Below are positions 15,108 to 31,260 of a DNA stretch of 64,000 nt, piece after piece (position 1 is the first letter of the stretch; each line of letters opens with the position of its first letter). This DNA comes from Klebsiella electrica (GTDB lineage Bacteria; Pseudomonadota; Gammaproteobacteria; Enterobacterales; Enterobacteriaceae): the NCBI RefSeq assembly GCF_006711645.1, contig NZ_CP041247.1, positions 2,480,001 through 2,544,000 of the forward strand, written 5' to 3'. The notes under the pieces are model-generated. The model saw only the letters and a list, made by a program, of their open reading frames with translations, ran no database searches and was not told the DNA's origin. The position numbers and the translations under genes were made by a program.

Positions 15108-15116
15108 GGAGAGCGA

Positions 15117-16607: not shown

Positions 16608-16865
16608 ATGCTAAACCGTGTTTATGATAAATATCTGGCTGCCTATAGCTGTGTTGCTGGATGCATTTATGATTTCAAAAACAATGAAAAAGGCGTCACC
16701 GCCGTTGAGTACGCGATTGTCATCGCAGGCGTGGCCGCCGTTGTTGCCGTTGTTTTCGGTTCGGGCGGAACCGTAGAGAATATGTTGACCGGGATTTTTG
16801 ACAATATCAAAACTAAGGTTGATACCTCTATGCAACTTGGCGGTGGCGGTACCCCTGCGCCATAA
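16608..16865 (+). CDS. flp: Flp/Fap pilin
   Basis: An 85-residue type IVb prepilin. The leader of 29 residues ends in N-E-K-G, cleavage would follow Gly29, and the mature protein begins V-T-A-V-E-Y-A-I-V with Glu at +5 and the adjacent Tyr, the Flp signature. A hydrophobic helix of about 20 residues follows, then a short polar tail ending in Gly- and Pro-rich residues. It is the major subunit of the pilus and would be processed by the prepilin peptidase encoded at 27285. AAGGGA precedes the ATG. It opens the operon. Confidence 0.94.
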   Translation: MLNRVYDKYLAAYSCVAGCIYDFKNNEKGVTAVEYAIVIAGVAAVVAVVFGSGGTVENMLTGIFDNIKTKVDTSMQLGGGGTPAP

Positions 16866-16970
16866 GCCTTTTCACGTTCATTAGTGGTTTTAATACGGGC
16901 ATAGCAGGACGCAATGCTCGTATTTGTCAATTTCAGATACATGGATACTGTCAACGCAAAGTGGAAAACA

Positions 16971-17843
16971 ATGAATATGAAAAGAGGCGGTCTGCTGGTT
17001 TATGTGGTGATGATCGTTGTCGGTATTCTGGGGCTGTTTTTCTATTTTAATCAATCCCGCACGGCTGCCCCTTTGCAGGCCAGCCAGCCAGAAAAAAAAC
17101 CGCAGCAGACGATAAGCGTGGTGGTAGCCACCCGTGATTTAGACGCCAGAACGATACTACGGGCCGGGGACTTTCAGATTAAAACCGTTACGGTTGATGT
17201 CGGCAGTACCGATGCGCAGTTTAATCTCGTCGGTAAAAACCTGGATAACTGGGCGTTAAAAAGCGCGGTGCCGGCGAATTCATGGATTTTGCCGGGTTTA
17301 ATGGTGGCGCCGGGCAGCGATGAATACCTGACCCTGTTTTTACGGCCGGGGAATATTCTCTATACCTTTGAGCTAAACAAGTCAGACAACTATTTATTAA
17401 ATAACATCAAAGCCGGGCAGGGCGTGGATATTTATCTCTCCTATCGTCGGATATACCCCAAACATGAAGATACGCTGGAAGTCGGCGCCGAACAGTCCCG
17501 TGAGAAAAATCAGCTTTATAACCGCCTGAAACCGCTGATGGGCAATAAGCGGGTACTGGCGATTCGCCCGGCAAAAACGGTGGTCAATAACGGCGTCAAC
17601 GTGGTGGAAAAGGGTAGCCAGCTGGTGGTGGAGCTGCAGGATCGCGAGGTCAAAATGCTGAAGGGGCTGGGCGGCGAGCTGGCGAATATTCTCCTGTTTC
17701 CGGCCACCACCTCTCCGGAAGGGAAATCGACCATTGCGCTGCCTTCGGCTGAGGCGGCATGGCCGGTCAGCGACGACGTGATTTTTAATCTACCTCCCGT
17801 TCCAGCAAAGCTCGCCTCAGAAATTAACGAGCTTCGAGGCTAA
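16971..17843 (+). CDS. cpaB: Flp pilus assembly protein CpaB/RcpC
   Basis: A 290-residue protein with an N-terminal membrane span (residues about 8-25, G-L-L-V-Y-V-V-M-I-V-V-G-I-L-G) and a periplasmic part. Residues about 55-120 read as an SAF domain (V-V-V-A-T-R-D-L-D-A-R-T-I-L-R near 52), as in CpaB/RcpC, followed by the RcpC domain. The family acts in the periplasm, possibly stabilising the secretin or binding peptidoglycan. I chose the ATG at 16971, with TGGA seven bases upstream, over an upstream ATG at 16914 that would add 19 residues before the membrane helix. Confidence 0.88.
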   Translation: MNMKRGGLLVYVVMIVVGILGLFFYFNQSRTAAPLQASQPEKKPQQTISVVVATRDLDARTILRAGDFQIKTVTVDVGSTDAQFNLVGKNLDNWALKSAVPANSWILPGLMVAPGSDEYLTLFLRPGNILYTFELNKSDNYLLNNIKAGQGVDIYLSYRRIYPKHEDTLEVGAEQSREKNQLYNRLKPLMGNKRVLAIRPAKTVVNNGVNVVEKGSQLVVELQDREVKMLKGLGGELANILLFPATTSPEGKSTIALPSAEAAWPVSDDVIFNLPPVPAKLASEINELRG

Positions 17844-17908: not shown

Positions 17909-19309
17909 ATGACTCAACGTTTGTTCTGCATTAAAAGGCTGTTTGTGCTGCTGGTGCTTTGCGTGTTTTCTCTGGGGGCCAGGGCGGAGGTCGTTAATCT
18001 CAAACCCGGGCAATCGAAAACGCTGCGCTTCGCTAGCGCCGTTAATACGGTGTTTGTGTCAGACCCGGCCGTTGCCGATTACAAAATCGTCAACGATAAA
18101 AATATCGTGCTGTATGCCCGCAAGCTGGGTAGCACTGAGCTGGTGGTCTATGGCCCGCAGGCGAAAATCCTGATGAATCTCAGCGTGGATGTCGACCCTT
18201 TTCTGAGCGACATTCGCCAGCGCGTGGCGCGTGAATACCCCGGCAGTACGGTGGAGGTGAAACGCTTCCAGAATGCCGATAAAGCCACGTGGATCCTGAG
18301 CGGCACGGTGCCCGATGAAGAGAGCCGTGACGGGGTCTATCAGCTGGTCGGCAGTCTGGTGGGCTCCGGCGATGGCGGCAGTAAAAGTAACGGCAGCAAC
18401 ACCAGCAGTGAAAACACCCGTTTTGCGATCGCCAAAGTCTATGACAACGTCATTAACCGCTTACAGCTCCCGTCCTCGAACCAGGTCAACGTTAAACTGA
18501 CCGTGGTGGAGGTAAGCAAAGAGTTTACCGACAACCTGGGCATTGAGTGGAGCAGCCTGACGCTGGATAGCATTATCAACGGCGGCAGCAGCGTGAACAG
18601 CCCCGGCATGTTTAATTTACTCGGTTTTCGCCGTGGGTTTGATGCCGGAAATATCAGCACCCTGATTAACGCCATCAAAAATGACTCGATTGCCCGGGTG
18701 CTGGCCCAGCCTAATCTCACCGTACTTTCCGGAGAGTCCGCCAGTTTCCTGGTAGGCGGCGAAATTCCGATTATGGTGAAAGACCAGGACTCGGTCACCG
18801 TGCAGTATAAAGAGTACGGTATTCGCCTGAATATCACCGCCAAGGTGGAAAAACGCCAGAAGATACGCCTGTTTGTCTCCAATGAATTAAGCAGCGTCAC
18901 CGGTTCGTATGCCTATAACGACTACCAGATCCCGACCATGCGTACCCGGCGCTCCAGCTCAACCATCGAGCTGGCGGATGGCGACAGCTTTGTTATCGGC
19001 GGATTATTAAGCGAGGCCGATAAGGAGTCGCTCACCAAAGTGCCGTTTATTGGCGATATTCCGGTGCTGGGGGCATTGGCCCGTAGCTCGATGACCGAAA
19101 GAAGCAAAAGCGAACTGGTGGTATTCGCCACGGTGAATCTGGTGAAACCGCAGGCCGAAGCGGCGGCCCGCAAGATGTCGCTTCCATCCTTTCGCCGCAG
19201 CTCGGTTGAGAAGCTGTTCTTTAACGTCGGCGTTGACCAGAAAATGCGCGAAGAGCGTTTAAATAGTGATGCCGGACGCTTTCTTGAACAGGGCGGCTTT
19301 GCCCGCTAA
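17909..19309 (+). CDS. rcpA: Tad secretin CpaC/RcpA
   Basis: A 466-residue outer-membrane secretin with a signal peptide (basic start, hydrophobic core, cleavage about residue 26 after A-R-A). Residues 28-100 are the T2SS/T3SS pilus N domain (N-L-K-P-G-Q-S-K-T-L, V-S-D-P-A-V-A-D-Y). A BON-like part follows. The secretin core runs from about residue 190, with the conserved V-G-G-E-I-P near 285 and T-R-R-S-S-S-T-I-E-L-A-D-G near 349. It would form the gated channel for the Flp fibre. A Ser/Gly/Asn-rich low-complexity stretch lies near residues 150-170. Confidence 0.93.
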   Translation: MTQRLFCIKRLFVLLVLCVFSLGARAEVVNLKPGQSKTLRFASAVNTVFVSDPAVADYKIVNDKNIVLYARKLGSTELVVYGPQAKILMNLSVDVDPFLSDIRQRVAREYPGSTVEVKRFQNADKATWILSGTVPDEESRDGVYQLVGSLVGSGDGGSKSNGSNTSSENTRFAIAKVYDNVINRLQLPSSNQVNVKLTVVEVSKEFTDNLGIEWSSLTLDSIINGGSSVNSPGMFNLLGFRRGFDAGNISTLINAIKNDSIARVLAQPNLTVLSGESASFLVGGEIPIMVKDQDSVTVQYKEYGIRLNITAKVEKRQKIRLFVSNELSSVTGSYAYNDYQIPTMRTRRSSSTIELADGDSFVIGGLLSEADKESLTKVPFIGDIPVLGALARSSMTERSKSELVVFATVNLVKPQAEAAARKMSLPSFRRSSVEKLFFNVGVDQKMREERLNSDAGRFLEQGGFAR

Positions 19310-19345: not shown

Positions 19346-20485
19346 ATGAAGTTGTTTTCGGATTCTAAAAAGAAAAGCGAGCCGGAAGTCGCGCAGAAGG
19401 CGAAAAAGGGGGGCGCGCAGTCGATAATTATTATCTCCCCTGATAAAGAGATACTTTCTGACATTAGCAGTTTGTTATTAATTAATAACTTTAATAACGT
19501 TATTGGTCACCCGCTTGATTTTTTTGCCTTGCAGGATGACAGCATTTTGCGCGGCGCCGCGACGGTAATTATTGATATCGGCAACTGTAATGATGTCACC
19601 TTAATCTGTGAAACGGCCACATTGCTGATTCCCGCCAGCGCGCGTCAGGTCTTTCTCGGTCGCAATGACTCAATAGCTTTCGCCCAGGCGCTGATGAGCG
19701 CCGGCGTCTGCTATCTGCATATTCAGTCCCAGCTGGCGCAGCTGGCCGGGCAGCTCCAGCAGCCTGACAGCGCCCTGGCGACGCGCAGCATGATGAAAAT
19801 CAGTCTGCTGGGCTGCAAAGGCGGCGTGGGTACCACAACCGTGGCCTGGCAGCTGTTTCAGGCCATCGGTATGCAGACCTCGATCCCCTCGCTGCTGGTG
19901 CAGGGCGCCAGCGGCAGCCGGGATCTTGATTTAATGACCTCCCGTACTCTGCCCAGAGACGGGGCGATTACGCCGATGGGGCCTCAGCAGTCCGCGCGCA
20001 TAGAGCCCCTGGATGCGGCCTGGACCTATGACGATAGCCACTTCAATGCGTTCAATCTGGTGATGTTCGATCACGGCGTCTATGCCCAACCCTACGAGCA
20101 TCTTGAGACCGTCTTTACGCAATCCAGCACCTTGATTCTGGTGATTAACCGCGATCTGAGCGCCCTGCGGGTGGCTAAGTATTTGCTGGATGAGAAGCAG
20201 CGCGTTGACCTGTCGCGCGGCGGCAAAGAGCTGCGGGTCTTCATCTGCCTCAATGAGAATCACCCTGCGCACGGCGATGAGCTGCGCAATGACGATATTG
20301 AGGAGTACCTGGGTTACCCGCTGGCGGTGATTAACCCGTGGAACGTTAAGCAAAACCAACCGTTGTCGGCAACACCGCTGTGGCGTTTTGCCGCCCAAAG
20401 CCTGCTGGGTAAATCTGAGCAGGAGACGGCAAAGAGAAGATTATTTCCATCGTTTTTCTCATTACGCCCCGACCGTAAGTCGTAG
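19346..20485 (+). CDS. tadZ: Tad pilus localisation ATPase TadZ/CpaE
   Basis: A 379-residue MinD/ParA-superfamily protein. The N-terminal 130 residues resemble an atypical receiver domain (I-I-I-S-P-D-K-E-I near 29). The C-terminal part has a deviant Walker A, G-C-K-G-G-V-G-T-T-T-V near residues 155-165: the ParA signature Lys is present but the usual Lys before Thr is replaced by Thr, as in many TadZ proteins, so ATP hydrolysis may be weak. L-V-M-F-D-H-G near 240 is the Walker B region. TadZ marks the pole or site where the pilus machine assembles. This matters here because a GTPase module follows in the same operon. Confidence 0.9.
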   Translation: MKLFSDSKKKSEPEVAQKAKKGGAQSIIIISPDKEILSDISSLLLINNFNNVIGHPLDFFALQDDSILRGAATVIIDIGNCNDVTLICETATLLIPASARQVFLGRNDSIAFAQALMSAGVCYLHIQSQLAQLAGQLQQPDSALATRSMMKISLLGCKGGVGTTTVAWQLFQAIGMQTSIPSLLVQGASGSRDLDLMTSRTLPRDGAITPMGPQQSARIEPLDAAWTYDDSHFNAFNLVMFDHGVYAQPYEHLETVFTQSSTLILVINRDLSALRVAKYLLDEKQRVDLSRGGKELRVFICLNENHPAHGDELRNDDIEEYLGYPLAVINPWNVKQNQPLSATPLWRFAAQSLLGKSEQETAKRRLFPSFFSLRPDRKS

Positions 20486-20522: not shown

Positions 20523-21825
20523 ATGACGACAGCGATGGATACGGAGAGCTTTGAATCCCTGCTCTATTTTCGTGAGCTGGTGCTGAAGAGCGTTGATTTA
20601 GAACGGGTTGATGCGTTGCGTCACGATCGCGATGCGCTGTTTCGGGAAATCAGCGAGGTGATCACGCGGCAGGTGAACAGCAGCGGCAGATATTTATCCT
20701 CCCGCGCCAGTCACGATCTGTGCGAGCTGGTTACCGATGAGATAACCGGCTACGGCCCGCTACGGGAATTAATGGAAGACGACACCATCAGCGATATTTT
20801 GGTGAACGGCCCGGATCGCATTTTTGTTGAGCGTTTCGGCAAACTTGAACAGGTCGATAAACGCTTCCTCAACGACGTTCAGCTCACCGATATCGCCAGA
20901 CGGCTGGTTTCGCGAGTGGGGCGCCGGGTCGATGATTCCCAGCCGCTGGTGGACGCAAGGATGCCGGACGGCAGCCGCCTCAACGTGGTGATTTCACCGG
21001 TGGCGCTGGATGGCGCGTCGATCTCCATCCGTAAGTTTGGCAAGGGTAAGAAATCACTGGCCGACCTGGTGGAGTACGGCAGCATGAATGAAATGATGGC
21101 CAATTTTCTGGTCATCGCCAGCCGCTGTCGGGTCAACATTATTGTCTCCGGGGGGGACGGGCTCGGGGAAAACCACGCTGCTTAACGCGATGTCGCAATA
21201 CATCAATGAAGATGAGCGGGTACTTACCCTGGAAGATGCCGCCGAACTGCGGTTACAGCGGCCGCACGTGGTTCGCCTGGAGACGCGAATGGCCGGGTCG
21301 GAAAACCAGGGAGTGGTGAATATGCGCCATCTGGTGGTCAACGCGCTGCGTATGCGTCCCGACAGGATAATCGTCGGCGAGTGTCGTGGCGAGGAGGCTT
21401 TTGAGATGCTGCAGGCCATGAACACCGGCCATGATGGTTCAATGTCGACGCTGCATGCCAACTCGCCGCGCGACGCGCTGGCGCGTCTGGAGAGCATGAT
21501 CATGATGTCCAGCGCGTCGCTGCCGTTGGCGGCCATACGCCGCAACATCGCCTCGGCGGTCAACATCATCGTGCAGGTGTCGCGCCTGCCGGACGGCTCG
21601 CGCAAGGTGATCAACATCGCCGAAGTGATGGGCATGGAAGGAGACAACATTATTCTGCAGGACATCTTTAGCTTCGGCGCCGAAGCGGATCGCAATGAGT
21701 ACGGCAAGATTCAGGGGACGTTTACCTGTTTTGGGCTGCTCCAGCGTTCGGCGGTGTACCGCCAGGCGCTGGTGCACGGCCTGCTTGAACCTTTAAAACA
21801 ACTGTTCGGGAACCGGATGCCATGA
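20523..21825 (+). pseudogene. tadA: Tad pilus ATPase TadA/CpaF, interrupted by a 1-base frameshift in the Walker A motif
   Basis: Two frames together give a full-length CpaF-type secretion ATPase of about 430 residues. The first runs to a stop at 21185 and carries the N-terminal part (Y-G-P-L-R-E-L-M near residue 80, V-D-A-R-M-P-D-G-S-R near 143). The second carries G-G-T-G-S-G-K-T-T, the Asp box and [14 protein letters not shown] (Walker B), to 21825. The switch falls in a run of seven G at 21150-21156; with six G the reading is [11 protein letters not shown] without a break. So one base is extra. It may be a real mutation, a phase-variable tract, slippage or a base-calling error. The start may be 20535 rather than 20523, where AAGG abuts the ATG. 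Confidence 0.92.
21150..21156 (+). repeat. G7 homopolymer within tadA
   Basis: Seven consecutive G residues encode the first glycines of the Walker A loop. A length of six restores the TadA frame. Such G tracts are prone to slippage in replication and in base calling. Confidence 0.85.
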
Positions 21826-22727
21826 TGATGATCATTTTTAGCTTTCTGCTGCTGGCAGGCTGCATTCAGTTGGGGCTGTGGTATCGCCAGCAGAAGCGCA
21901 TGCGGCGTTTACAGCAGGCGGAAGCCGCCCGTAACCGGGTGGAGCTGACAAGGCGACTGCTGCGTAATCCGCTGGGCGGGTGGTTATCACGCTTGATGGA
22001 CACTATGCGTCTTCATTTACTGGGCAAGCAGCGCGCTACCGTCTTGCGCCACGGGCTGATCCTGCTGCTGGTCCAGGCCGCAAGCTTCTACGTAAACCAG
22101 AATTACCTGAACCTGAGTCCGCTGATTATCCATCCCGCATGCTTTGTGCTGACCCTCTACGGCCTGTATCTCAACAGTAAGAAAAAGATGCGTCTGGAAT
22201 TTGATGCTCAGTTTTCGGAAGCGCTGAATATTATTAACAGCTCGATCCGCGCCGGTAACTCGGTTATTCAGGGGATTGAGCAGTGCGGGCAAAAGATTGA
22301 CGGTGTGCTGGGCGATGAATTCAGACAGATATCGCAGCGCCTGGAAATCGGTGAAGATGCGGAAAGCGTATTTTTGGCCTCGTGGCGACGCCTGCCGTTT
22401 AGTGAATACTACTTTTTCATCATTACCGTACAGCTCAACATGAAAGGCGGGGGGCAGGTCAAAGAGGTGATGTCGCGTCTGGGAACGCTTATCTCCAACG
22501 CCCGGGTACTGGAGAAGAAAAAATACGCCATGACATCGGAAGTCCGCATGTCGATTAAGATACTGACGGCTATCCCCATTTTTTTCTTCTTCTTTCTGAA
22601 ATTTCAGTCACCGGCCAATTTTGACATTTTGCTGCACCATCCGACGGGCCAGATGATGCTCTATTACGCTATTTGCAGCATTCTGCTGGGGCTGCTGATT
22701 GTCTGGATGATGATGAATAAAATATAG
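21822..22727 (+). CDS. tadB: Tad inner-membrane platform protein TadB
   Basis: A 301-residue protein with an N-terminal span (residues 1-18), a pair of spans near 80-115, and a C-terminal pair (near 250-298). The central part is a T2SSF domain ([14 protein letters not shown] near 136, L-N-M-K-G-G-G-Q-V near 205). TadB and TadC form the platform on which TadA acts. The gene overlaps the tadA end by four bases (ATGATG), so it is translationally coupled and could suffer polar effects from the frameshift. Confidence 0.92.
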
Positions 22728-22734
22728 GTGGCAT

Positions 22735-23580
22735 ATGTTTTATATTCTTGCGCTAATCCTGCTGGTCTCCGGCGCCGGGGGATTAACCCGGATCTGGTTA
22801 TTGAAGCGACGTCGGCAGCGTATTTATCACCTGCTGGAGCAGAGTAGCAAGCAGTACGCTTTTATCCCACAGGATAATACAACGCCGGTTGAGCGAATCA
22901 TGAGGAAAACCAGTCGACTGGTCTCGTGGACCGCGATGCTGGATAAAAACATTGTCGCTAAAACGTTAACCGTCGTTATCGCGACGCTACTGCTGGTATT
23001 CGTGGATGCGGCCGGGATTTATACATTTTCCCGTGAGATGTTATTTCTTTGCGTACTGGCCTGCGTGGTGGTGGTTATTCTGTTACCGAATCTGGTAAAG
23101 GAAATGACCATAAAAAAACACATGAAAAGGATTTCTGACGACCTGCCATTCGTTATCGATATGCTGGCAGTCTGCGTGCAATCCGGGATGACCATTGAAA
23201 AAGCGTTGCGTTATATCGCCGACAATACCTATGCCATTAATCCCAATATCGCCACGCTGTTCGACAGGGCGATGCTCAAAACAGAGGTGAACGGGATTAA
23301 CGCCGCGCTGGAACAACTCTATGAAGAGGTTCCGGGGACAGAAGTCAGAATGCTGTGTTCGACCTTGCAGCAAAGTATTAAATATGGCTCGTCAATATAT
23401 CAGGTGTTGATCGACCTTTCTAAAGAGATGCGCGAACTGCAGCTGCTGAATACCGAAGAGAAGGTGGCCAGCCTGTCAGCAAAAATGACGTTGCCGATGA
23501 TCGCTTTCATTATGTTTCCGCTGTTGGTCATCGTCGCGGGGCCGGGTTTTATAGGGATGGTGTCAATGTGGTCAAAATAA
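22735..23580 (+). CDS. tadC: Tad inner-membrane platform protein TadC
   Basis: A 281-residue T2SSF-domain protein with an N-terminal span, two spans near residues 80-120 and a C-terminal span near 255-275. D-D-L-P-F-V-I-D-M-L-A-V-C-V-Q-S-G near 135 is the family's conserved cytoplasmic helix. It begins eight bases after tadB. Its end overlaps the next gene by 13 bases. Confidence 0.92.
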   Translation: MFYILALILLVSGAGGLTRIWLLKRRRQRIYHLLEQSSKQYAFIPQDNTTPVERIMRKTSRLVSWTAMLDKNIVAKTLTVVIATLLLVFVDAAGIYTFSREMLFLCVLACVVVVILLPNLVKEMTIKKHMKRISDDLPFVIDMLAVCVQSGMTIEKALRYIADNTYAINPNIATLFDRAMLKTEVNGINAALEQLYEEVPGTEVRMLCSTLQQSIKYGSSIYQVLIDLSKEMRELQLLNTEEKVASLSAKMTLPMIAFIMFPLLVIVAGPGFIGMVSMWSK

Positions 23581-24869
23581 TCTCTCTTACGGCGTTTCTC
23601 GCGCTGCTGGCGTTGGGCGGCTGCCAGAGCCAAACCGGCGGCGGTGAACTCAATGATAGTCAGCGTGAATATATTCTCAGTAAGGTCAATAACTATAACG
23701 GCTTGATCAAGCTCTACCGTGAAAAGCTCAGCCGTAAAGAGGATAAGGATACCCGCTACCAGCTGGCGGAATACTACTATCTGGCGGAGGATTTCGACTC
23801 TTCCCGCCAGTATCTGCAGCCGCTCATCGCCAACAATCCCGATGAACGGGCATTATTACTGGCAAGTAAAAACCTGATGGAGCTCGGCAATTATAGCGAA
23901 GCGCAGGCGATGGTTGCCGGCGTGCTCAGGCAGAACCCCCAAAGCGGCGAGGCCTGGAATATGCAGGGGATCCTGCTGGCGCAAGATGGCGATTTTACCG
24001 GGGCGGCCCGCGCGTTTAATAGCGCGAGGCAGCGCTTTGTCGATGACGATATCGTGATTAATAACCTGGCGATGCTGGCCATTATGCAAAACGATTACGC
24101 CACCGCCAGAGACTATCTTTTTTCTCTCTACGGCAGGGGGCATGCGAGCCAGAAAGTGCTGCATAACCTCGTCTACGTGCTGGTCAAGCTCCAGGACTTT
24201 AACGGTGCGGAAAGCATCCTGCAGCAGGAAAAGATGGCCGACCGTAGCGACGGGTTGATGGAAGCGCTGGCGAAAGTGAATCCGCGCCCGCGCGTGCGGT
24301 CGGCAGCGTTGTCGGCCCCGGCTCCGGTGTCGATAGCGAAAAGCGCGGCGCCAGCGGTGAAATCGGGGGCCCAGACCGGCATCGCACCGCCACCGCTCAA
24401 AACGGCGGCCGCTGAACGCACATCGACCTCCACTCAGGATGAAATAACCCGGCTCCTGGATAATCAGCCGACGGCGAAGCCGGCAGGGCTGGTGGAAAAA
24501 GCGTCTTTGTCGTTAACCAGCGGTCTGAAAGACGTTTCTGCGGTTCGCTCCGGACGCCACCCCGGATATTTCCGCATGACGCTGGAGTCGCAGCATGCGA
24601 TTAATTTCCGCGAACTTCCCAGCGCGGATAAAAATAAGCGTATTTTTGAATTACAGAATGTCAGACTAGGGCAGGCGTTGCTGCGTGCGGCTGACGATAT
24701 TCCCAGAGAATACCCCAATATCAATAAATTGACGTTTTATCAGAATCAAACGGATGCTGTTTTAATTGAGTTTGAATTTACCCACTCACTGGCAAAAACG
24801 AAGGTATTCCGCCTCGCTGCGGGTAAGGTTCCAGGGGAACGACTGGTGTTTGATATTTATTACGGCTGA
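23568..24869 (+). CDS. tadD: TadD-like TPR lipoprotein with an extra C-terminal domain
   Basis: A 433-residue lipoprotein starting at GTG 23568 inside the tadC end. The signal has a lipobox, L-G-G-C at residues 16-19, so Cys19 would be lipidated. Residues about 45-220 are TPR repeats (Y-Q-L-A-E-Y-Y-Y-L-A-E-D-F, A-W-N-M-Q-G-I-L-L-A-Q-D-G, and similar). Residues 225-320 are an Ala/Pro/Ser/Thr linker. The last 110 residues are a separate domain with L-E-S-Q-H-A-I-N-F-R-E-L and E-R-L-V-F-D-I-Y-Y at the end, which looks like an AMIN-type or related beta domain. TadD helps secretin assembly and is usually only the TPR part, so the extra domain is unusual. It might bind peptidoglycan, as AMIN domains can. 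Confidence 0.85.
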   Translation: MVKIISLTAFLALLALGGCQSQTGGGELNDSQREYILSKVNNYNGLIKLYREKLSRKEDKDTRYQLAEYYYLAEDFDSSRQYLQPLIANNPDERALLLASKNLMELGNYSEAQAMVAGVLRQNPQSGEAWNMQGILLAQDGDFTGAARAFNSARQRFVDDDIVINNLAMLAIMQNDYATARDYLFSLYGRGHASQKVLHNLVYVLVKLQDFNGAESILQQEKMADRSDGLMEALAKVNPRPRVRSAALSAPAPVSIAKSAAPAVKSGAQTGIAPPPLKTAAAERTSTSTQDEITRLLDNQPTAKPAGLVEKASLSLTSGLKDVSAVRSGRHPGYFRMTLESQHAINFRELPSADKNKRIFELQNVRLGQALLRAADDIPREYPNINKLTFYQNQTDAVLIEFEFTHSLAKTKVFRLAAGKVPGERLVFDIYYG

Positions 24870-24904: not shown

Positions 24905-25366
24905 ATGAAAATTTATGAATACAACGATCTGCTGGTGCAGGTGCCGGCGGGCGTCACGCATCTGATGATCGGCGCAGATGGCGTATTACGCGGCTATCGC
25001 AACAGGCCGGATATGTCATTGCCCCGGCCCTGGGAAACGACGGAAAGTATTATTCCTGGCGTGCTGAACTGGGAAAAATCACACGCTGAGATTGCCGCGC
25101 TGCGGGAATATTCGCCCATTATTATTCACGAGTTTGCGGTGCCGGGAACCGAACGTTTCCGCGTCGGCGATAAATACACGCTGCATGCGACCATCAATGA
25201 AGAACTCTGTTTGACCTCCGAGGTTCATGCGGTCGTCAGCTGCTATACGCCGGGCATGAAGCCCTGGTGCCAGATATTAAAACTGAAGGTCGAAGGACTC
25301 TCTATCGATAATATTCTGCTGGCAAATGTTAAAGAAGTTCTTCATGACTTAAAAGTCACTGATTAA
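24905..25366 (+). CDS. Hypothetical protein at the start of the roadblock/GTPase cassette
   Basis: A 153-residue soluble protein, no signal or membrane segment. It begins M-K-I-Y-E-Y-N-D and has alternating strand-like segments (Y-S-P-I-I-I-H-E-F near 77, L-H-A-T-I-N-E-E near 97, H-A-V-V-S-C-Y near 113), suggesting a mainly beta fold, then an amphipathic helix at the end. Two Cys and a W-C pair lie near 118-126. I do not recognise a family. It lies between tadD and the roadblock gene, same strand, 35-base gap, so it is part of the pilus operon and a likely partner of the GTPase module. Confidence 0.75.
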   Translation: MKIYEYNDLLVQVPAGVTHLMIGADGVLRGYRNRPDMSLPRPWETTESIIPGVLNWEKSHAEIAALREYSPIIIHEFAVPGTERFRVGDKYTLHATINEELCLTSEVHAVVSCYTPGMKPWCQILKLKVEGLSIDNILLANVKEVLHDLKVTD

Positions 25367-25397
25367 TCACAACAGAATGAATTTACAGGAGAAAATA

Positions 25398-25763
25398 ATG
25401 GCTGAAATGGAAAAGTTACTGGATGGACTGGTTAACCTTGATGGCGCGCTGGGGGCGGCGCTGGTCGATGCCCGTAATGGCATGCTGTTACACGGCGTGG
25501 GCTCTGCCGGTCTGGATATTGAAATTGCCGCCGCGGCCATTACTGACGTTCTGCGCGCCAATATCAAGATGCTGAAATTAATGGCGACCGGAGATGAAGT
25601 GGAAGACATCCTGATTACGCTGGGCAAACAGTACCACATACTCCGACCGGTGAGGGCTGTGGATGGGGTATTCGTGTATACCATTCTCGATCGCCGCAAT
25701 GGAAATCTGGCGCTGGCCAGACGCAAAGTGACGGACGTTGAAGAGGCCATCGTCATTTTATAA
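25398..25763 (+). CDS. Roadblock/LC7-domain protein (MglB/CvnB-like)
   Basis: A 121-residue protein whose whole length fits the roadblock/LC7 fold: L-D-G-L-V-N-L-D-G-A-L-G-A-A-L-V-D at the start (first helix and strand), a central helix about residues 40-60 with L-K-L-M-A-T-G, I-L-I-T-L-G-K-Q-Y-H-I-L-R-P as paired strands, and V-Y-T-I-L-D-R-R-N-G-N-L-A-L-A before the last helix. Roadblock proteins dimerise and bind small GTPases, as MglB does for MglA. AGGAG lies six bases before the ATG at 25398; an ATG at 25377 has no site. It is followed by the GTPase gene, which supports a functional pair. Confidence 0.8.
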   Translation: MAEMEKLLDGLVNLDGALGAALVDARNGMLLHGVGSAGLDIEIAAAAITDVLRANIKMLKLMATGDEVEDILITLGKQYHILRPVRAVDGVFVYTILDRRNGNLALARRKVTDVEEAIVIL

Positions 25764-25770
25764 GTAACCC

Positions 25771-25789
25771 CGCCCGCGTAGCGCGGGCG
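25771..25789 (+). promoter_or_regulatory. Stable hairpin between roadblock and GTPase genes
   Basis: An 8-bp all-GC stem (CGCCCGCG / CGCGGGCG) closing a 3-base loop, eight bases after the roadblock stop and 18 bases before the GTPase start. No T run follows. It could be an RNA processing or protection element setting the ratio of the two products. Confidence 0.5.
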
Positions 25790-25807
25790 GAGGACATAAG
25801 GTTCGGG

Positions 25808-26368
25808 ATGATGAAAGACTATAAGGTGATCCTGGTAGGACGCAGCGGCTCGGGTAAGACCACGGCTATCCGTAGCGTCAGTGAAATCAACGTCGTGTCA
25901 ACGGACGTGCTGGCATCGGACCGCGGCGACGCAGAGAAAGACACCACCACCGTCGGTTTTGACTACGGCGAGCTGACTATTCCTGGCGGGCAAAACCGGA
26001 TGCGGCTTTACGGCACTCCGGGGCAGGAGCGCTTCACGTTTATGCGCGATATCCTGGAACGCGGCAGCGTCGGTATTCTGCTGCTGGCCGATAATCACCG
26101 GCCAGATCCGCTGGCAGAGACTCGCAGTTGGCTGCGGGCGCTGAAAACCGGCCCGTTGGCGGGAAATGCGATCGTGCTGCTGGGCATCGTTAAGTGCGAT
26201 TTGTCCCCCTTACCTGATCTTGAACAATACCAGCGCTTGCTGCGGGAGGAGGGGCTAACTCTTCCCGTCGCGACGCTGGATGCACGCAGCCCGGAAAGGG
26301 TCTTATTTCTGCTGAAGGTGCTGTTTTGCCAGCTTGAGCGTGCCAGAAATGAAGAGGTTTATTCCTGA
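25808..26368 (+). CDS. Ras-like small GTPase (CvnD/MglA-related)
   Basis: A 186-residue single-domain P-loop GTPase. G1 is G-R-S-G-S-G-K-T (residues 11-18). G2 lies in T-T-T-V-G-F-D-Y-G (46-54). G3 reads Y-G-T-P-G-Q-E-R-F (68-76), where the usual Asp of DxxG is Gly, exactly as I know it from conservon CvnD proteins. The G4 position reads V-K-C-D (128-131) instead of N-K-x-D, so nucleotide specificity may be relaxed. The Gln after PG, equivalent to Ras Gln61, is kept. AAGG lies six bases upstream. It sits between two roadblock genes inside the Tad operon and overlaps the second by one base. Pilus switching or polarity control is inferred. Confidence 0.85.
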   Translation: MMKDYKVILVGRSGSGKTTAIRSVSEINVVSTDVLASDRGDAEKDTTTVGFDYGELTIPGGQNRMRLYGTPGQERFTFMRDILERGSVGILLLADNHRPDPLAETRSWLRALKTGPLAGNAIVLLGIVKCDLSPLPDLEQYQRLLREEGLTLPVATLDARSPERVLFLLKVLFCQLERARNEEVYS

Positions 26369-26841
26369 TGACAAGCATACTTCCGTTTGCGATTGAAGAT
26401 GCCGGTACCCTGTCGACTGAACTCAGTCAGCAGATTCAGCAACTGCTGCTGGAGTTTGCCCAGAATTATCCCGTGATGGGGGAGCTGCTGGTGGCGACCG
26501 CCGATGGTTATGAGGTCGCGGCCGTTCTCAAAGAAGAGGACCCCGGGCGGTTACATAAAATCGCGGCGATGACCAGCTCTCTGCTGGGGGTTGGCGCCGC
26601 GATGCTAAATGAAATCGCGGCCGGAGAGCAGAAAGCCATCACCGTCGAGGGCGAGAGGGACAATATCCTGCTCTGGCAGGTCGCTACGCAGCGTTTTCCG
26701 CTATGTCTGACCGTCGTGGCCTCCGCACAGGAGCCCCTCGGGCAACTGTTCTGGCTGCTGCGCCAGTTGGCGGCGGCCATTGCTGAGATTTGTCATGCGC
26801 AGCCCGATCTGCCGCCGCCACAGGAATATTATTATGAATGA
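26368..26841 (+). CDS. Second roadblock/LC7-like protein
   Basis: A 157-residue protein with roadblock-like layout: an N-terminal helix (E-L-S-Q-Q-I-Q-Q-L-L-L-E-F), a strand pair around G-E-L-L-V-A-T-A-D-G-Y-E-V-A-A-V near 38-53, a helix L-H-K-I-A-A-M-T-S-S-L-L-G-V-G near 63-78, then E-G-E-R-D-N-I-L-L-W-Q-V and F-P-L-C-L-T-V-V-A-S. This is close to the CvnB and MglB pattern, but the N-terminus and C-terminal tail (Pro-Pro-Pro, Tyr-rich) differ from the first roadblock protein. Its start overlaps the GTPase stop by one base (TGATG), so the pair is translationally coupled. It probably contacts the GTPase. The fold call is from pattern only. Confidence 0.72.
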   Translation: MTSILPFAIEDAGTLSTELSQQIQQLLLEFAQNYPVMGELLVATADGYEVAAVLKEEDPGRLHKIAAMTSSLLGVGAAMLNEIAAGEQKAITVEGERDNILLWQVATQRFPLCLTVVASAQEPLGQLFWLLRQLAAAIAEICHAQPDLPPPQEYYYE

Positions 26842-27229
26842 TCCGTTAACGATGTCCTTTGCCGTCAGATTATGCTCGGCAGACATGAGCTGTGGTTTTA
26901 TTTCCGTGTCGCCGGTCCTGGATAACCGGGCAGAATTAATTCAGCAGCGTCTGAACTGGTATCACCAGTGGCTACATTCGCTGTGTAGCCATTTGCAGAA
27001 AGAGACGCCGATCCCGCAAGATATTTTCTCGCTTCTGCTGCTGCAGGCGGTTGAATTAACGGCTGCCGATATGCTTAGCGATGCCATTGCGCTGGCTCCG
27101 GTGCTTTACGATCGCGACAGCAGAATCATCGAGAGCGTGACCAGCTATTTTTCCTGGCTCCAGGCATGTACGCTGCCGGACCCTGAAAATAATGAACTGA
27201 CGCAGCCAGAGAATCTCTCGCCTGAATAA
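26834..27229 (+). CDS. Hypothetical helical protein at the end of the GTPase cassette
   Basis: A 131-residue, mainly helical protein without signal or membrane segment. Visible features: a Trp/His-rich helix (R-L-N-W-Y-H-Q-W-L-H-S-L near 40), a second helix F-S-L-L-L-L-Q-A-V-E-L-T-A-A-D near 63, and an acidic C-terminus. The start at 26834 overlaps the end of the second roadblock gene by eight bases, so translation is likely coupled. I do not recognise a family. By position it is a partner of the roadblock/GTPase set or a pilus accessory protein. Confidence 0.65.
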   Translation: MNDPLTMSFAVRLCSADMSCGFISVSPVLDNRAELIQQRLNWYHQWLHSLCSHLQKETPIPQDIFSLLLLQAVELTAADMLSDAIALAPVLYDRDSRIIESVTSYFSWLQACTLPDPENNELTQPENLSPE

Positions 27230-27284: not shown

Positions 27285-27710
27285 GTGAATATCGCATGGC
27301 TATTGACTGCCGGTATCAGCGGAGTGCTTATCTATATTTGCTATATGGATATCCGCTGGCGGCGGATACCTAACCGCGCCACGCTGCTGATACTGCTGCT
27401 CTCCAGTCTCGCAGGATTTACGCATATGCCTTATCCGGCGTTCATTCTCCCCGGCATACTGCTGGCGCTGGGTTTTATCGCCGTGATGGCGAAGCTGATG
27501 GGCGCCGGGGATATTAAGCTGGTGTGCGCGCTGGCGGTGGCGTTGTCAGTACCGGAGACCGGCAATTTTTTGCTGCTGACGGCCATCGCGGGTATTCCCG
27601 TCGCCATTGTCAGCCTGCTCTGTTTTTATTTCTTCGCCCGCGAGGAACGCGCGACGGTGCCATATGCGCTGGCCATCAGCTGCGGGTACTGGCTACAGCT
27701 GTGGATATAA
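27285..27710 (+). CDS. tadV: Prepilin peptidase TadV/CpaA
   Basis: A 141-residue A24-family aspartic membrane peptidase with about five spans. The two catalytic aspartates are visible: Asp22 in Y-M-D-I-R-W-R-R-I-P-N and Asp76 in G-A-G-D-I-K. There is no N-terminal methylase domain, as usual for TadV/CpaA. It would cut the leaders of Flp, TadE and TadF after Gly. It follows the GTPase cassette after 55 bases and stays on the same strand. The start could be earlier or later by a few codons; GTG at 27285 is used. Confidence 0.92.
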   Translation: MNIAWLLTAGISGVLIYICYMDIRWRRIPNRATLLILLLSSLAGFTHMPYPAFILPGILLALGFIAVMAKLMGAGDIKLVCALAVALSVPETGNFLLLTAIAGIPVAIVSLLCFYFFAREERATVPYALAISCGYWLQLWI

Positions 27711-27724
27711 CCATTGGTGAATGT

Positions 27725-28225
27725 ATGTTTAAAAAGATAAAAAACGGTCTGCGGCATTATTTATACGCTGAACATGGTGTTGCTGCTATGGAATTTTCCA
27801 TGGTGTTTATTCCTTTTATTATTTCGATACTTTTTATTGCCGAGATGTGCCGGGTGGTCTTTATTTCCTCGGCGCTCGATCTGATTATCGCCGAGTCGGG
27901 CCATATAGCGGCGATCACCAGAGTGCCAGACAATTATCAGCAATATTTTAATGCCGAAATCAATAAGCGCATGGCCGACTGGCCGCTCATTTCCCGTGAA
28001 GTACATGTCCAGATTTCGGTTAGCTGGTGTGACAGTATTTCCGCGGTGATTAACCACACTTGCACCACCACGGATGCGCATAATAAGCCGCTGGCATTTT
28101 ATAAAGTGACCACTGATTATCAGCCGCTGTTTTTCTTCTTTCCTTCGCAAAGCGTCATCCAGGAACTAAGCCGCAGGATTTTACTGGTACAGGAATTTCA
28201 GCGTGAGGCAGAAAATAATGAATAA
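27725..28225 (+). CDS. tadE: TadE-like pseudopilin
   Basis: A 166-residue prepilin-like protein. The leader ends A-E-H-G and the mature part begins V-A-A-M-E-F-S-M-V with Glu at +5, followed by a 20-residue hydrophobic helix. The rest is a periplasmic domain with two Cys near residues 100 and 113 that may form a disulfide. GGTGAA precedes the ATG at 27725; longer frames reaching back into tadV are not plausible. TadE and TadF are minor pseudopilins needed for Flp assembly. Confidence 0.88.
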   Translation: MFKKIKNGLRHYLYAEHGVAAMEFSMVFIPFIISILFIAEMCRVVFISSALDLIIAESGHIAAITRVPDNYQQYFNAEINKRMADWPLISREVHVQISVSWCDSISAVINHTCTTTDAHNKPLAFYKVTTDYQPLFFFFPSQSVIQELSRRILLVQEFQREAENNE

Positions 28226-28808
28226 CACGATGGGCAAGATAAAACGCGCGCTACGCGACGATCGAGGGTCAGTCGCGATTGAGGCCGGTCTGTACTTCGT
28301 CGTCTTTTTTGTGCTGTGCGCGCTGCTGGTGGATTTCAGCGCCGTCTTTCTGAATAAAAGTTACCTCGAGCGGGTCACCCATTCGCTGGCCAGCGTGGTA
28401 CGCGAAAGGTCTGTCTTCTATGGCGAAAGAGAGGAGCTAAGTCAGCAGGAGGTCAGCGATCTCTACGATCTGGCCGGTGTTCTGCTGGAGGAGAGCCGTC
28501 TGGCAGGCAGCCGCTATCAACTGGTGGTGGAAGCCGCCTTCTTTCAATCCAGCGGCAGCAAAGCGCAAAAAAACCTGTTGAATACTCAGTCCTTCTCCCG
28601 GGGGACCGGGATCTGCCGCAGCCGGGTTGCGATAACCAGCGCGCAGATTGCGGCGCTGTCGCCGTGGGATACGAAAGGGCGCTGGCTGCCGGTTTATCAG
28701 GTGACGATGTGTCTGCCGGGCGGCGAGAGTTTATTTAAACGCGCGTTGAATAGCGCCGGAATACAGATCGGCGATATTGCCATCAGCAATGCGGTGATCC
28801 CGCGTTAA
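28218..28808 (+). CDS. tadF: TadF-like pseudopilin
   Basis: A 196-residue prepilin-like protein overlapping the tadE end by eight bases. The leader ends R-G and the mature sequence starts S-V-A-I-E-A-G-L-Y with Glu at +5, then a hydrophobic helix to about residue 42. The periplasmic part carries two Cys (near 134 and 171). GAGG lies about 10 bases before the ATG at 28218; an ATG-less extension to 28203 is less likely. Confidence 0.85.
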   Translation: MNNTMGKIKRALRDDRGSVAIEAGLYFVVFFVLCALLVDFSAVFLNKSYLERVTHSLASVVRERSVFYGEREELSQQEVSDLYDLAGVLLEESRLAGSRYQLVVEAAFFQSSGSKAQKNLLNTQSFSRGTGICRSRVAITSAQIAALSPWDTKGRWLPVYQVTMCLPGGESLFKRALNSAGIQIGDIAISNAVIPR

Positions 28809-28837
28809 TACCGTTCCTTATGGGCGAGGTGAAAATT

Positions 28838-30601
28838 ATGCGAAGCCGGTTTTTACGGTTTATCGTGCGTCTTTTGCGTCAGGAGTACGGCGCGATAACC
28901 GTGATGTTTGCCATTATGTTTCCGCTGATAATGATGTTTTATTCGGTGGCCTATGATGGCGCTAATTTACAAAGCAGTCGCGCCAGGCTGGCAGATGGCC
29001 TTAATCAAGGCGTGCTGGCGGTGGCGATTCTCGACAACCGCAACACCACCGCCGCGGATAAGGCGGAGAATATTACGCTGGTGCATAACTACCTTTCCTA
29101 CTATGTGCCGGATGCGACGATCGCCAAAAACGATCTGGCCGTAGCGGTAGAGGTGAACTACAGCACCACGGAAACCGGCAAACTTGACTCCGTGGACTAT
29201 ACCGCCAGCGGTAAAGCCAGCATGCGGCCAATAATCGGCGCGCAGCAAGAGGTCGGTTTTGACTCCGCGGTGGATATTCGTGCCGACAGCGGCGCGGGAG
29301 TGGTCAGAAAAACGTTTGAAGTCGTCAGATTCCCGACTGATTACGCTCTGGTACTGGATTTTTCGGGTTCAATGCAAGAGCTCTCATCAGAGCCGGGGAT
29401 GACAAGAATTACCTTGCTCCGTAAGGTTGTGACGGATTTCATCAGTGATATATTAAATGATGATTCGGTGAGTAATACGGTAAGCATTATTCCATTCAGT
29501 ATTGGTGTGCCAGTTATCCTGCCGGGCGAAAATATTGCGGGTGGGGTAAGCGTGGGTTGCTCTTTTGTAGGAAAGTTAAAGCCACAGTATCAAAAAGTCG
29601 ATCTTGATTTCTGGTATAATAAATTCCACATCAATAATTCTAATACTCCTGCTGAGAAGGCTCAGTCTTATAGTTATGACCGTTCATTATATAGCTATTA
29701 TCAAGATGTGATTGGTCCGGCTACCGGTAATAGTATGGATAATATGGTTACGAAAGGATGGTGCGTAAAAAATGCGAGTTATGGCAGCAGCGTGGGTAGA
29801 GATGTGTACAGCTGTGATGCCGATCCGCGTTCAAGGTTGTTTGATAACTATGATGAGTTTCTTGAATCGCGTGTAGCGGCTCATGATTTAATGCTGAGGG
29901 ACGGCGCGAATTATGCAATCACGAATAATGAAACCCTGGATTATGAGGGGATGTTTGCCGATGGATATATGTTTTCAGAACAGGCGGTTATCACCTTTAA
30001 ACATATGATTGGATCGCGGTCGATGCGGCCTTTTGATCTGGATTGTTATTCTGCATTTGACGCAATGGATTTTAGTTTCGAGATGGTCAATCTCCTGAAG
30101 GATAAGACAGCAAAACCTAAGTCCTATCTTATAGAGCTAACAAACGATATTAGTGTTATTGATGAGTTTAATAACATGAGGATTGTTAATGGCTCACCCA
30201 CTCATGTGACCTCTGGCCTGCTACGATCCCTACCGGTAGTTGCCAAAGGCACCAATCCCAGAAAAGCAATTATCGTGATATCCGATGGTATTGATTCCGG
30301 CAGCACGACCAGTGGACCCTATGCGATGACCGAGCGGCTATTTAAAACGTACGATCTTTGCCGGCGAGTCAGGGAGGGACTACTCCGTTACCCGCAGGGA
30401 ACCCCGACTCAGGTGGCCGATATCTTTTTTATTTTTACGGTTAATAATTCGGAAACTACCAATGCCCTTAATTTGTGGCGCAATTATTGTGCCGGTGACA
30501 ACGTGTTCCTTGCCACCAACTATCAGGACATTATTAACGTCCTGACGGGGATTGCTAAAAAATCCTCGGTGAAATTTATCAATAAAAATGAGCCGGAATA
30601 A
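28838..30601 (+). CDS. tadG: TadG-like protein with von Willebrand factor A domain
   Basis: A 587-residue protein. The N-terminus resembles a pseudopilin (Y-G-A-I-T-V-M-F-A-I-M-F-P) but has Met, not Glu, at +5; a single membrane helix follows. Residues about 155-560 are a vWA domain with the MIDAS start D-F-S-G-S near residue 164 and V-I-S-D-G-I-D near 484. TadG anchors or caps the machine. AGGTG lies six bases before the ATG at 28838. The segment from about 29400 to 30250 is clearly more AT-rich than the rest of the operon, suggesting the central part was replaced by recombination. Confidence 0.88.
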   Translation: MRSRFLRFIVRLLRQEYGAITVMFAIMFPLIMMFYSVAYDGANLQSSRARLADGLNQGVLAVAILDNRNTTAADKAENITLVHNYLSYYVPDATIAKNDLAVAVEVNYSTTETGKLDSVDYTASGKASMRPIIGAQQEVGFDSAVDIRADSGAGVVRKTFEVVRFPTDYALVLDFSGSMQELSSEPGMTRITLLRKVVTDFISDILNDDSVSNTVSIIPFSIGVPVILPGENIAGGVSVGCSFVGKLKPQYQKVDLDFWYNKFHINNSNTPAEKAQSYSYDRSLYSYYQDVIGPATGNSMDNMVTKGWCVKNASYGSSVGRDVYSCDADPRSRLFDNYDEFLESRVAAHDLMLRDGANYAITNNETLDYEGMFADGYMFSEQAVITFKHMIGSRSMRPFDLDCYSAFDAMDFSFEMVNLLKDKTAKPKSYLIELTNDISVIDEFNNMRIVNGSPTHVTSGLLRSLPVVAKGTNPRKAIIVISDGIDSGSTTSGPYAMTERLFKTYDLCRRVREGLLRYPQGTPTQVADIFFIFTVNNSETTNALNLWRNYCAGDNVFLATNYQDIINVLTGIAKKSSVKFINKNEPE

Positions 30602-30624: not shown

Positions 30625-31260
30625 GTGTTGGATTTGGCTGTTTTGGCTAATCAGTGCGCGCCAGACGTCGCTCCCCAGGTGTTGGAACGTTTAATGAAAG
30701 TGGAATCGTCGTTTAATCCTTATGCCATTGGCGTGGTGGGCGGGCGGCTGGCGCGTCAGCCGCGCCATAAGGAAGAAGCTGTCGCTACCGCGCAGTATCT
30801 GGCACAGGCAGGCTGGAATTTTTCGCTAGGGCTGGGTCAGGTGAACCGGCACAATCTCGACAAATACGGACTGGATTATGAAACCGTCTTCGATCCTTGT
30901 CATAACGCCCGCGCCGCTGCCGGTATTTTTAATGAATGCCTGCGCCGCGCGTCGGTCAAGTTTTCCCCGCAACAGGCGCAGCTGGCGGCGTTTTCCTGCT
31001 ACTACAGCGGCAACTTCCGCCGCGGCTTTCTCCCTGAAGGCCAGGCGCAGACCAGCTACGTTGAGCGGATCATGGCGGTAAAGCCGACGCTTACGGCAGG
31101 CGGCGCGGTCCCTATTGCGGTGATTCCCGACGGTCAATCTCGCCCAACGGCAAAAGTCCCCAGCGCAAAAGAAAACCGGCCAACGTCGCCCGGCGCGAAG
31201 CTATCTCAGATAGCCGGCGCATCATCGCCCCGAGGCGTGAAAGCTCTGCGGGGTGACTAG
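30625..31260 (+). CDS. VirB1-like lytic transglycosylase
   Basis: A 211-residue peptidoglycan-cleaving enzyme with GTG start and AGGAGG five bases upstream. The SLT/VirB1 domain covers residues 1-150: catalytic Glu27 in M-K-V-E-S-S-F-N-P-Y-A-I, then S-L-G-L-G-Q-V-N near 67-74, and F-S-C-Y-Y-S-G-N-F near 122. This motif set is closer to the VirB1 enzymes of type IV secretion than to Slt70. It has no obvious signal peptide, so how it reaches the periplasm is unclear. The C-terminal 55 residues are a basic Pro/Ser/Lys-rich tail. As last gene of the Tad operon it would open the wall for the fibre. Confidence 0.85.
   Translation: MLDLAVLANQCAPDVAPQVLERLMKVESSFNPYAIGVVGGRLARQPRHKEEAVATAQYLAQAGWNFSLGLGQVNRHNLDKYGLDYETVFDPCHNARAAAGIFNECLRRASVKFSPQQAQLAAFSCYYSGNFRRGFLPEGQAQTSYVERIMAVKPTLTAGGAVPIAVIPDGQSRPTAKVPSAKENRPTSPGAKLSQIAGASSPRGVKALRGD

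Follow-up and report, generated by a model that had tools for sequence, protein, structure and literature searches.

A Ras-like GTPase and roadblock gene cassette within an enterobacterial Tad pilus locus: a candidate switch of the MglA/MglB type

The DNA analyzed here (the window) is a stretch of 64,000 nucleotides of the Klebsiella electrica genome, in which a Tad/Flp pilus locus contains a cassette of five genes that resembles the MglA/MglB-type GTPase modules of other bacteria. The five genes, all on the forward strand, fill the interval that separates tadD (23568-24869) from tadV (27285-27710), which encodes the prepilin peptidase. The first, g1 (24905..25366), encodes a protein of 153 residues. 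It is followed by g2 (25398..25763), encoding a roadblock-like protein, by a GC-rich hairpin predicted by RNA folding (25768..25792, same strand), by g3 (25808..26368), encoding a small GTPase of the MglA type as judged from aligned motifs, by g4 (26368..26841), encoding a roadblock/LC7 protein, and by g5 (26834..27229), encoding a helical protein with an internal tandem duplication. The starts of g2 and g5 were set at later ATGs, as in the original prediction made from this sequence. From tadD through the five genes to tadV the spacing is 35, 31, 44, -1, -8 and 55 bases, as tight as in an operon. The coordinates of the open reading frames (ORFs) bear out the proposed five co-directional genes separating tadD from the peptidase gene, and the overlaps of 1 (g3/g4) and 8 bases (g4/g5) are right. 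The roadblock-GTPase-roadblock identity proposed for g2-g4 stands for g3, which matches Ras (PF00071, E 1.4e-9, above cut-off) and ATP_bind_1 in Pfam, and for g4, which exceeds the Robl_LC7 cut-off (25.4 bits versus 23) and matches a roadblock chain of the PDB (E 1.4e-10). It is weaker for g2, which stays under the same cut-off (19.2 bits versus 23, E 0.0012) with Robl_LC7 still as its best family. Genome-wide searches covering the 5.79 Mb of this genome returned a single g3 (E<=0.001), a single g2 and, with Robl_LC7, g4 as the sole match, all at the Tad locus.

Relatives were sought in tool-drawn, non-exhaustive samples of genomes, in which L-numbers designate loci and G-numbers genomes; L014-L016 are named copies of L022, L023 and L027 and were excluded from every count. 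At E<=1e-10, g3 was detected in 4 of 20 genomes of the genus sample and 10 of 295 of the family sample (own genome included), and all 12 places other than our own are Tad loci holding g2, g3, g4 and g5. A search with g5 was positive in 14 of 392 family genomes and 13 of 154 genera (own included in both) and added five places, again all Tad loci with g2, g3, g4 and g5. In total, 17 of 17 non-own enterobacterial g3/g5 places lie inside Tad loci, so that the rare linkage to tad genes that had been named as the outcome speaking against the original prediction is not what is seen in the family. The suggested search for the same gene order in other Tad loci recovered tadD-(g1)-g2-g3-g4-g5-tadV in 15 of the 17, with L031 and L092 carrying an extra roadblock-like gene inside. 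In L091, and likewise in L024/L086 of a single genome, g3 and one g2 are relocated behind the last conserved gene of the locus and a second g2-like gene stays between tadD and g4. The succession g4-g5-tadV is retained in all 17 other cassette loci, including those with a relocated g3, and g1 is present in nine (L022, L023, L025-L029, L090 and L092). By its gene content, the cassette appears to be a four-gene core (g2-g5) with an optional g1. When g2 was searched in 15 genomes, 13 were positive and all 16 g2-like places fell within the fetched Tad loci; for the two negative genomes, only cassette-free Tad loci were among those fetched. A single genome can harbor two separate cassette-bearing Tad loci, as observed for L093 and L094 (both G1117:C3), each with a roadblock-CZB gene of the kind described below.

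The ratio of nonsynonymous to synonymous substitution rates (dN/dS), calculated for the window against L022, L023 and L025, was 0.056-0.134 for g1, 0.015-0.048 for g2, 0.112-0.197 for g3, 0.068-0.150 for g4 and 0.246-0.285 for g5, versus 0.037-0.413 for the tad genes. All five cassette genes are thus under purifying selection (0.015-0.285), g2 having the lowest value among the genes compared. The sequence distances of the cassette genes correlate with those of the tad genes at r 0.72-0.97, and those of the tad genes with one another at 0.83-0.98 (11 rows, 7 for g1; L029 excluded). Distances that track those of the tad genes indicate descent as a unit and not contact, since shared descent alone suffices to explain them. 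Two other contexts were considered and abandoned: the five proteins gave no match in PADLOC (E<=0.01) that would indicate anti-phage defence, and each of the 107 matched records of a plasmid collection was below 60% identity, which lends no support to a plasmid origin. The cassette DNA of L029 had no match in E. coli in a search that copies below about 65-70% identity would escape.

Closely related Tad loci without the cassette also exist. In L074-L076, tadD is directly followed by tadV and profile search revealed no cassette gene. A family search with RcpA (identity at least 59%) gave 12 non-own places, nine with the cassette and three, namely L074-L076, without. These three come from one genus, which also includes the genome of L027, and G040 holds both types (L027 with, L075 without). 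Eleven more distant RcpA places (L077-L085, L087, L088) contain no cassette gene by profile search. In an RcpA tree of 32 rows, the 18 cassette rows and L074-L076 form one clade (support 100/100) on which the cassette label needs two changes. A single gain within a Tad subclade and a single loss in Serratia-type loci fit this; two gains may also account for it, the base of the clade being unresolved in this tree. A GTPase tree of 61 rows (pieces shorter than 130 residues excluded) places the 13 Tad GTPases then known on one side of a branch that has support 95/72 and recurs in 92% of the 200 bootstrap trees. The branch leading to L024 is long in this tree, whose bootstrap is not fully settled. 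From these data the cassette belongs, as a conserved element, to one Tad subclade. With its patchy spread, the GTPase being present in 10 of the 295 genomes of the family sample (own included), the cassette could be taken for chance cargo on a mobile Tad island. The 17/17 linkage, the fixed order in 15 loci, the clustering in the trees and the constraint on all five genes argue against this explanation, which was already disfavoured and which we consider highly improbable.

What kind of GTPase g3 encodes can be judged from its motifs and neighbours. Its closest named relatives are from Raoultella planticola ATCC 33531 (94% identity) and Raoultella sp. BIGb0138 (89%). The P-loop of G1 (GRSGSGKT) fits GxxxxGK[ST], its Lys and the next Thr being invariant in 13 aligned rows. 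G3 reads GTPGQ in place of DxxGQ (G-x-PGQ invariant in the 13 rows), and G5 reads DAR with invariant Asp and Arg. Published systems are described here from the consulted parts of the papers cited. In the classification of Wuichet & Søgaard-Andersen (2014; PMC4316618), GTPGQ instead of DxxGQ in G3 defines MglA Groups 2-5, and Groups 2 and 3 combine DAR in G5 with a deviating G4. The G4 of the window, VKCD, is not the canonical [NT]KxD, and it keeps the Lys often lost in Groups 2 and 3; in L024 and L091 the Asp is missing as well (SKYS and SKFE). Such a G4, together with a conservation of g2 that far exceeds that of g3, would suit a degenerate G protein with little or no nucleotide binding, in a cassette acting as a structural scaffold for the Tad base, made of a roadblock platform and g5. 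We hold this to be decidedly unlikely, given the invariant G1 Lys/Thr, G3 PGQ and G5 Asp/Arg and the example of the Group 2 protein CvnD9, which has an unusual G4 and yet hydrolyses GTP (PMC4316618).

Outside the family, g3 was searched at E<=1e-15 and found in 12 of 394 genomes of the order sample and 62 of 369 of the class sample (own included). We compared 40 of these loci: the full set of 12 non-own places from the order sample and, from the class sample, 28 loci covering 32 of its 87 non-own places, in the main those with the highest scores. A roadblock gene is present in 38 of them, both types in 15, and none in L036, at a contig end, and L046. The gene directly upstream of 35 of the 44 GTPases in these loci belongs to one similarity group of 260-465 residues (one of 865); of the nine others, eight have no such ORF of at least 200 residues and one has an unlike gene. 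A profile of this partner, built without L072 and L057, later detected short or fused members in L042-L045 too. Group 3 MglA systems occur almost exclusively in beta- and gamma-proteobacteria and comprise one or two MglB proteins and a receiver-like protein (PMC4316618). In the GTPase tree, which holds no named Group 1-5 reference sequences, g3 groups with its gammaproteobacterial relatives. By motifs and neighbours g3 looks most like Group 3 MglA, and these features point to that group instead of to Myxococcus MglA (Group 1) or the Streptomyces conservons (Group 2), which the original prediction had named as precedents. In layout, the cassette would be a Group 3-like module that has lost its usual partner, has been rearranged with g2 first and has gained g5. 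Formal membership of Group 3 is not claimed, because the defining neighbour is absent and the tree is without a reference set.

This absent neighbour bears on another possibility, namely that the switch governs expression of the tad operon, through transcription or mRNA, rather than assembly of the machine. The Group 3 partner is predicted to be receiver-like with a winged helix, from which a role in transcription was proposed (PMC4316618), and a hairpin lies within the cassette in most loci. The partner profile, however, gave no match in L022-L033 and, in 13 enterobacterial genomes, only two matches of E 0.006 inside ORFs of 1174 residues, judged to be chance; it was positive in three of three control genomes, two of them outside model building. 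No DNA-binding family passed its Pfam cut-off among the five proteins either, and we regard control of expression as quite unlikely. TadZ was considered as a stand-in for the missing partner and drew no support from a profile comparison (probability score 2.3), in a setting where the positive control, g2 versus g4, was also unmatched (hhalign likewise).

The two roadblock proteins are of different types. All 12 aligned g4 proteins match Robl_LC7 (L029 g4, whose start was not found, was excluded). For g2, 8 of 13 aligned proteins, window included, match Robl_LC7 at E<=0.1 (best 2e-4), and neither a comparison of the g2 and g4 profiles nor a PDB search with g2 gave a match. Of the 40 outside loci, 15 have a g2-type gene next to a GTPase and a gene of the g4 type. 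We label g2 as roadblock-like because of this gene company and of the leading, if weak, Pfam match. A third roadblock-like gene is found by profile in each of seven other cassette loci, at three positions of the operon: L028:7830-8198, L029:7785-8153, L090:10928-11296, L024:3987-4343, L091:8927-9319, L031:10316-10795 and L092:11997-12356. Six of them were scanned against Pfam and that of L090 alone passes the Robl_LC7 cut-off. Four more loci carry, downstream of tadG, a fusion of a g2-like part with a CZB domain (L032:4470-5309, L033:4377-5252, L093:13800-14615 and L094:13683-14498). The N-terminal part is recognized by the g2 profile (E 1e-22 to 1e-25) and not by Robl_LC7 of Pfam; the second part is the CZB zinc-binding domain PF13682 (E 1e-11 to 4e-11, above cut-off). 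CZB proteins are reportedly connected with sensing of zinc and hypochlorous acid in other bacteria. The switch in these four loci may thus read an oxidant or zinc signal.

The g5 protein had been expected to be helical, and its AlphaFold2 model is all-helical, with four helices and a mean predicted local distance difference test (pLDDT) of 83.6. In 13 rows, residues D17, I23, P27 and R32 are invariant, as are D79, I85, P89 and R94 exactly 62 residues further. A column-profile test at offset 62 scored 54.4, and none of 2000 shuffles scored as high (shuffled maxima mean -16.3, sd 4.0); g5 is a tandem-duplicated helical protein. We read its model as two helical hairpins with conserved paired loops between helices 1/2 and 3/4. 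Comparison of the model with known folds gave no clear match, and Pfam none for g5 and g1. Among 68 database homologues of g5, the named ones are from Raoultella, Klebsiella, Citrobacter, Enterobacter, Kluyvera and an unclassified enterobacterium, and all 15 g5 places of the family search, window included, are cassette loci. Its two alike loops and its occurrence in cassette loci only make g5 a candidate adaptor between the switch and the pilus machine. For g1, 26 database homologues were obtained, the named ones all from Enterobacterales; its model is mostly beta and of low confidence (pLDDT 61.9).

Of the gene ends compared, the one behind g2 has by median the most stable predicted fold. In 13 loci, the median for the 45 bases 3' of its stop is -18.4 kcal/mol, versus -3.8 to -7.6 for 15 other gene ends of the locus, and the fold z-score is below -2 behind g2 in 6 of the 13 (4 of 13 for the runner-up, g5). 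Of the 18 loci folded, 12, window included, have a hairpin of -12 kcal/mol or stronger behind g2, of differing sequence; none of this strength was found in L024, L027, L032, L033, L093 and L094. In the window, no T run follows the hairpin on the coding strand. In L091, where g2 is at the end of the locus and a T run follows, the hairpin may simply be a terminator. Among four closely related loci, eight of eight pairs hold and one pair is seen as C-G, G-C, U-A and U-G; with four rows, 79 of 500 shuffles reached the same pair-conservation score, so that this count alone is weak. The hairpin could possibly raise the amount of g2 product over that of g3 by protecting the mRNA end or by partial termination.

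A different feature follows g2 in four relatives. In L028, L029, L090 and L092, the g2 beside g3 ends with TGA and is followed by 100-105 open codons in frame (L028:10283-10599, L029:10241-10548, L090:8566-8876 and L092:11284-11585). Six pairs give this tail a dN/dS of 0.29-0.44 (0.28-0.67 over the first 24 columns), so that it appears to be under constraint. Its first potential in-frame start (ATG, GTG or TTG) comes 18-20 codons in. A hairpin of nine pairs begins 22 bases after the TGA in all four loci; its pairs all hold (4/4) with one two-sided change, and 126 of 500 shuffles reach its score. An Rfam search to relate it to a known RNA gave one chance-like match (E 0.055, a small nucleolar RNA family). 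The g2 genes of the other 14 of the 18 loci, including the window, end with TAA, and 12 of these have no room for such a tail because g3 starts within 108 bases (L024 and L091 were outside this check). The second g2 copy of L092 ends with TGA, with the other g2 behind it. No new tails came from two genus searches (known tails in 2 of 4 and 1 of 7 genomes). Programmed UGA readthrough of g2 in these four relatives would be the simplest reading of the sequences and is put forward as a candidate; alternatively, translation may begin at a start codon inside the tail, the hairpin accounting for the conservation before it. This question concerns the relatives, as the window g2, with its TAA, is not involved.

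The rest of the locus in the window comprises the usual Tad/Flp gene set in one block on the forward strand. It starts with the flp pilin gene (16608..16865), which has homologues at the equivalent position in relatives, and continues with rcpC/cpaB (16914..17843; NCBIfam CpaB TIGR03177, E 3.8e-12, below its cut-off), the rcpA secretin gene, named by gene order and relatives (17909..19309), and the ParA/MinD-like tadZ (19346..20485; alignment and weak NCBIfam matches to CpaE/ParA-type families). Then come tadA (20523..21825), tadB (21822..22727) and tadC (22735..23580), the latter two named from ORFs and relatives, and tadD (23568..24869), a TPR protein by Pfam. Beyond the cassette are tadV (27285..27710; Peptidase_A24, E 2.3e-14), tadE (27731..28225) and tadF (28218..28808), both also named from ORFs and relatives, and tadG (28820..30601; Tad PF13400, E 4e-4, just below cut-off, and VWA). 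The start of tadE is not fixed, the mechanical ORF beginning further upstream. The locus ends with a putative lytic-transglycosylase-like gene (30625..31260), named from reading the sequence, with a profile match in 10 of the 12 loci L022-L033 and none in L032 and L033. Near the Walker A region, tadA is broken into two ORFs that lie in different frames, 20523-21185 and 21142-21825; in relatives, L022 and L023 among them, the gene is one uninterrupted frame. This may be an assembly error or a true loss, and in the latter case the strain probably makes no such pilus, despite its intact cassette. Just upstream of the block (11672-15815) are genes of a putative urea-type branched-chain ABC transporter, named by sequence reading. 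The TadZ proteins of cassette loci have basic, partly amphipathic-looking C-terminal tails, which were considered as GTPase-docking sites and discarded, as most TadZ of cassette-free loci have them as well.

MglB is the GTPase-activating protein (GAP) of MglA. On balance, the intact G1 and GTPGQ motifs of g3, its two roadblock-type neighbours, their inheritance together with tad and the detection of single copies only in the genome incline us to think that an MglA/MglB-type GTP switch was captured by an enterobacterial Tad subclade and now serves that pilus. In such a switch, g2 and g4 would bind g3, jointly or in turn, and determine whether it carries GTP or GDP, the role of MglB towards MglA. 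The GTP-bound g3 would act, probably through g5 as a Tad-specific adaptor, on the cytoplasmic Tad complex (TadZ/TadA/TadB/TadC), and this action would license pilus assembly at a given time or place. In Myxococcus, MglA-GTP and SgmX stimulate type IV pilus formation and the polar placing of the extension ATPase (PMC7519303), and g5 could take the role that SgmX has there between MglA-GTP and PilB. Where roadblock-CZB fusions are present, the input could be a zinc or oxidant signal. By analogy, the cassette might control the position of the pilus, as the original prediction supposed; its output may be the place, time, number or activity of pili. In Snodgrassella, which has Group 3 mgl genes, mutation of an orphan mglB changes type IV pilus-dependent motility (PMC11112851). 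The module could instead tune pilus dynamics or release, for example at the TadA or prepilin peptidase step, with no positional role. Its lack of a polarity protein and the g4-g5-tadV succession, kept in 17 of 17 loci even with g3 moved, would agree with this, but gene order is a weak argument and the Myxococcus example affects place as well as activity (PMC7519303); we consider the proposal unlikely. A fuller version of the switch, rather unlikely as a whole, would have at least two roadblock regulators, one class of them fused to a CZB zinc/oxidant sensor, respond to different inputs, g3-GTP signal via the duplicated adaptor g5 either to TadZ or to the assembly ATPase, and some species extend a fraction of their g2 by programmed UGA readthrough, the basic amphipathic end of the tail perhaps tethering it to the membrane at the pilus base.

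Several observations weigh against a GTP switch dedicated to the Tad pilus. The tad linkage put forward in the original prediction holds within the family and is not seen in the outside loci compared: profile search detected a tad block in 0 of these 40, with stray matches in L059 (a large ATPase, putatively PilB of a type IVa pilus, and a weak tadV-like match) and L062 (a TPR-type gene). Group 3 systems have themselves been proposed to act on transcription (PMC4316618). The non-canonical G4 of g3, and its further decay in L024 and L091, count here too, as does the support of 72 for a single Tad GTPase clade in the Shimodaira-Hasegawa-like approximate likelihood ratio test (SH-aLRT), under the customary 80. 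The cassette is dispensable for Tad as such, since related cassette-free loci exist, even in the same genome. Divergent roadblock genes elsewhere in the K. electrica genome may have escaped, because the Pfam Robl_LC7 model misses g2. Finally, tadA is interrupted in the very strain of the window.

Tad pili are widespread adhesion machines and, to our knowledge, how a cell chooses when and where to build them is poorly known. A Ras-like switch hard-wired in an enterobacterial Tad operon could be approached with the cassette-free sister loci as natural controls. If the proposed switch is real, Group 3 MglA systems, whose output has so far been seen only indirectly in the consulted papers, would gain a defined client, and a second pilus class beside type IVa would come under G-protein control. 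Among the matches listed, we found no description in the open-access literature of a roadblock/GTPase cassette in a Tad locus; a Nanoarchaeum proteome paper among them is unrelated, and so is a paper on Bdellovibrio Flp, which, in the parts consulted, has MglA only in its references (PMC5430801).

Cassette-free Tad/Flp loci of Enterobacteriaceae (L074-L076, L077-L085, L087, L088) share the Tad machine with the window and, for L074-L076, the tadD-tadV order, and differ in that profile search finds neither g1 or g5 nor a GTPase or roadblock protein in them. The Streptomyces conservons CvnA-D and mycobacterial mfp (Group 2) share an operon of GTPase and roadblock genes, GTPGQ and DAR (PMC4316618). 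Unlike in the conservons, the CvnA histidine kinase and CvnC are not among the five cassette genes, and no Tad link of Group 2 systems is described in the consulted parts of the literature (PMC4316618). Myxococcus xanthus (Group 1) has in common with the cassette a Ras-like GTPase with a roadblock protein, the latter acting there as GAP in a system that controls pili through SgmX (PMC9481161, PMC7519303). RomY is a second protein that completes this GAP for MglA, and this two-part GAP offers a parallel for the two roadblock proteins of the cassette (PMC9481161). Group 1 differs by TVPGQ instead of GTPGQ (PMC4316618), and the Myxococcus pili are type IVa and not Tad. Group 3 MglA of Neisseria, Xanthomonas and Snodgrassella shares GTPGQ in G3 and DAR in G5 (PMC4316618, PMC11112851), as well as two roadblock genes of different types beside one GTPase, as seen in 15 of the 40 outside loci. 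Compared with these systems, the cassette is without the receiver-like partner, adds g5 (and g1) and sits in a Tad locus, in the order g2-g3-g4, whereas the outside loci nearest in the tree mostly have g3-g4-g2.

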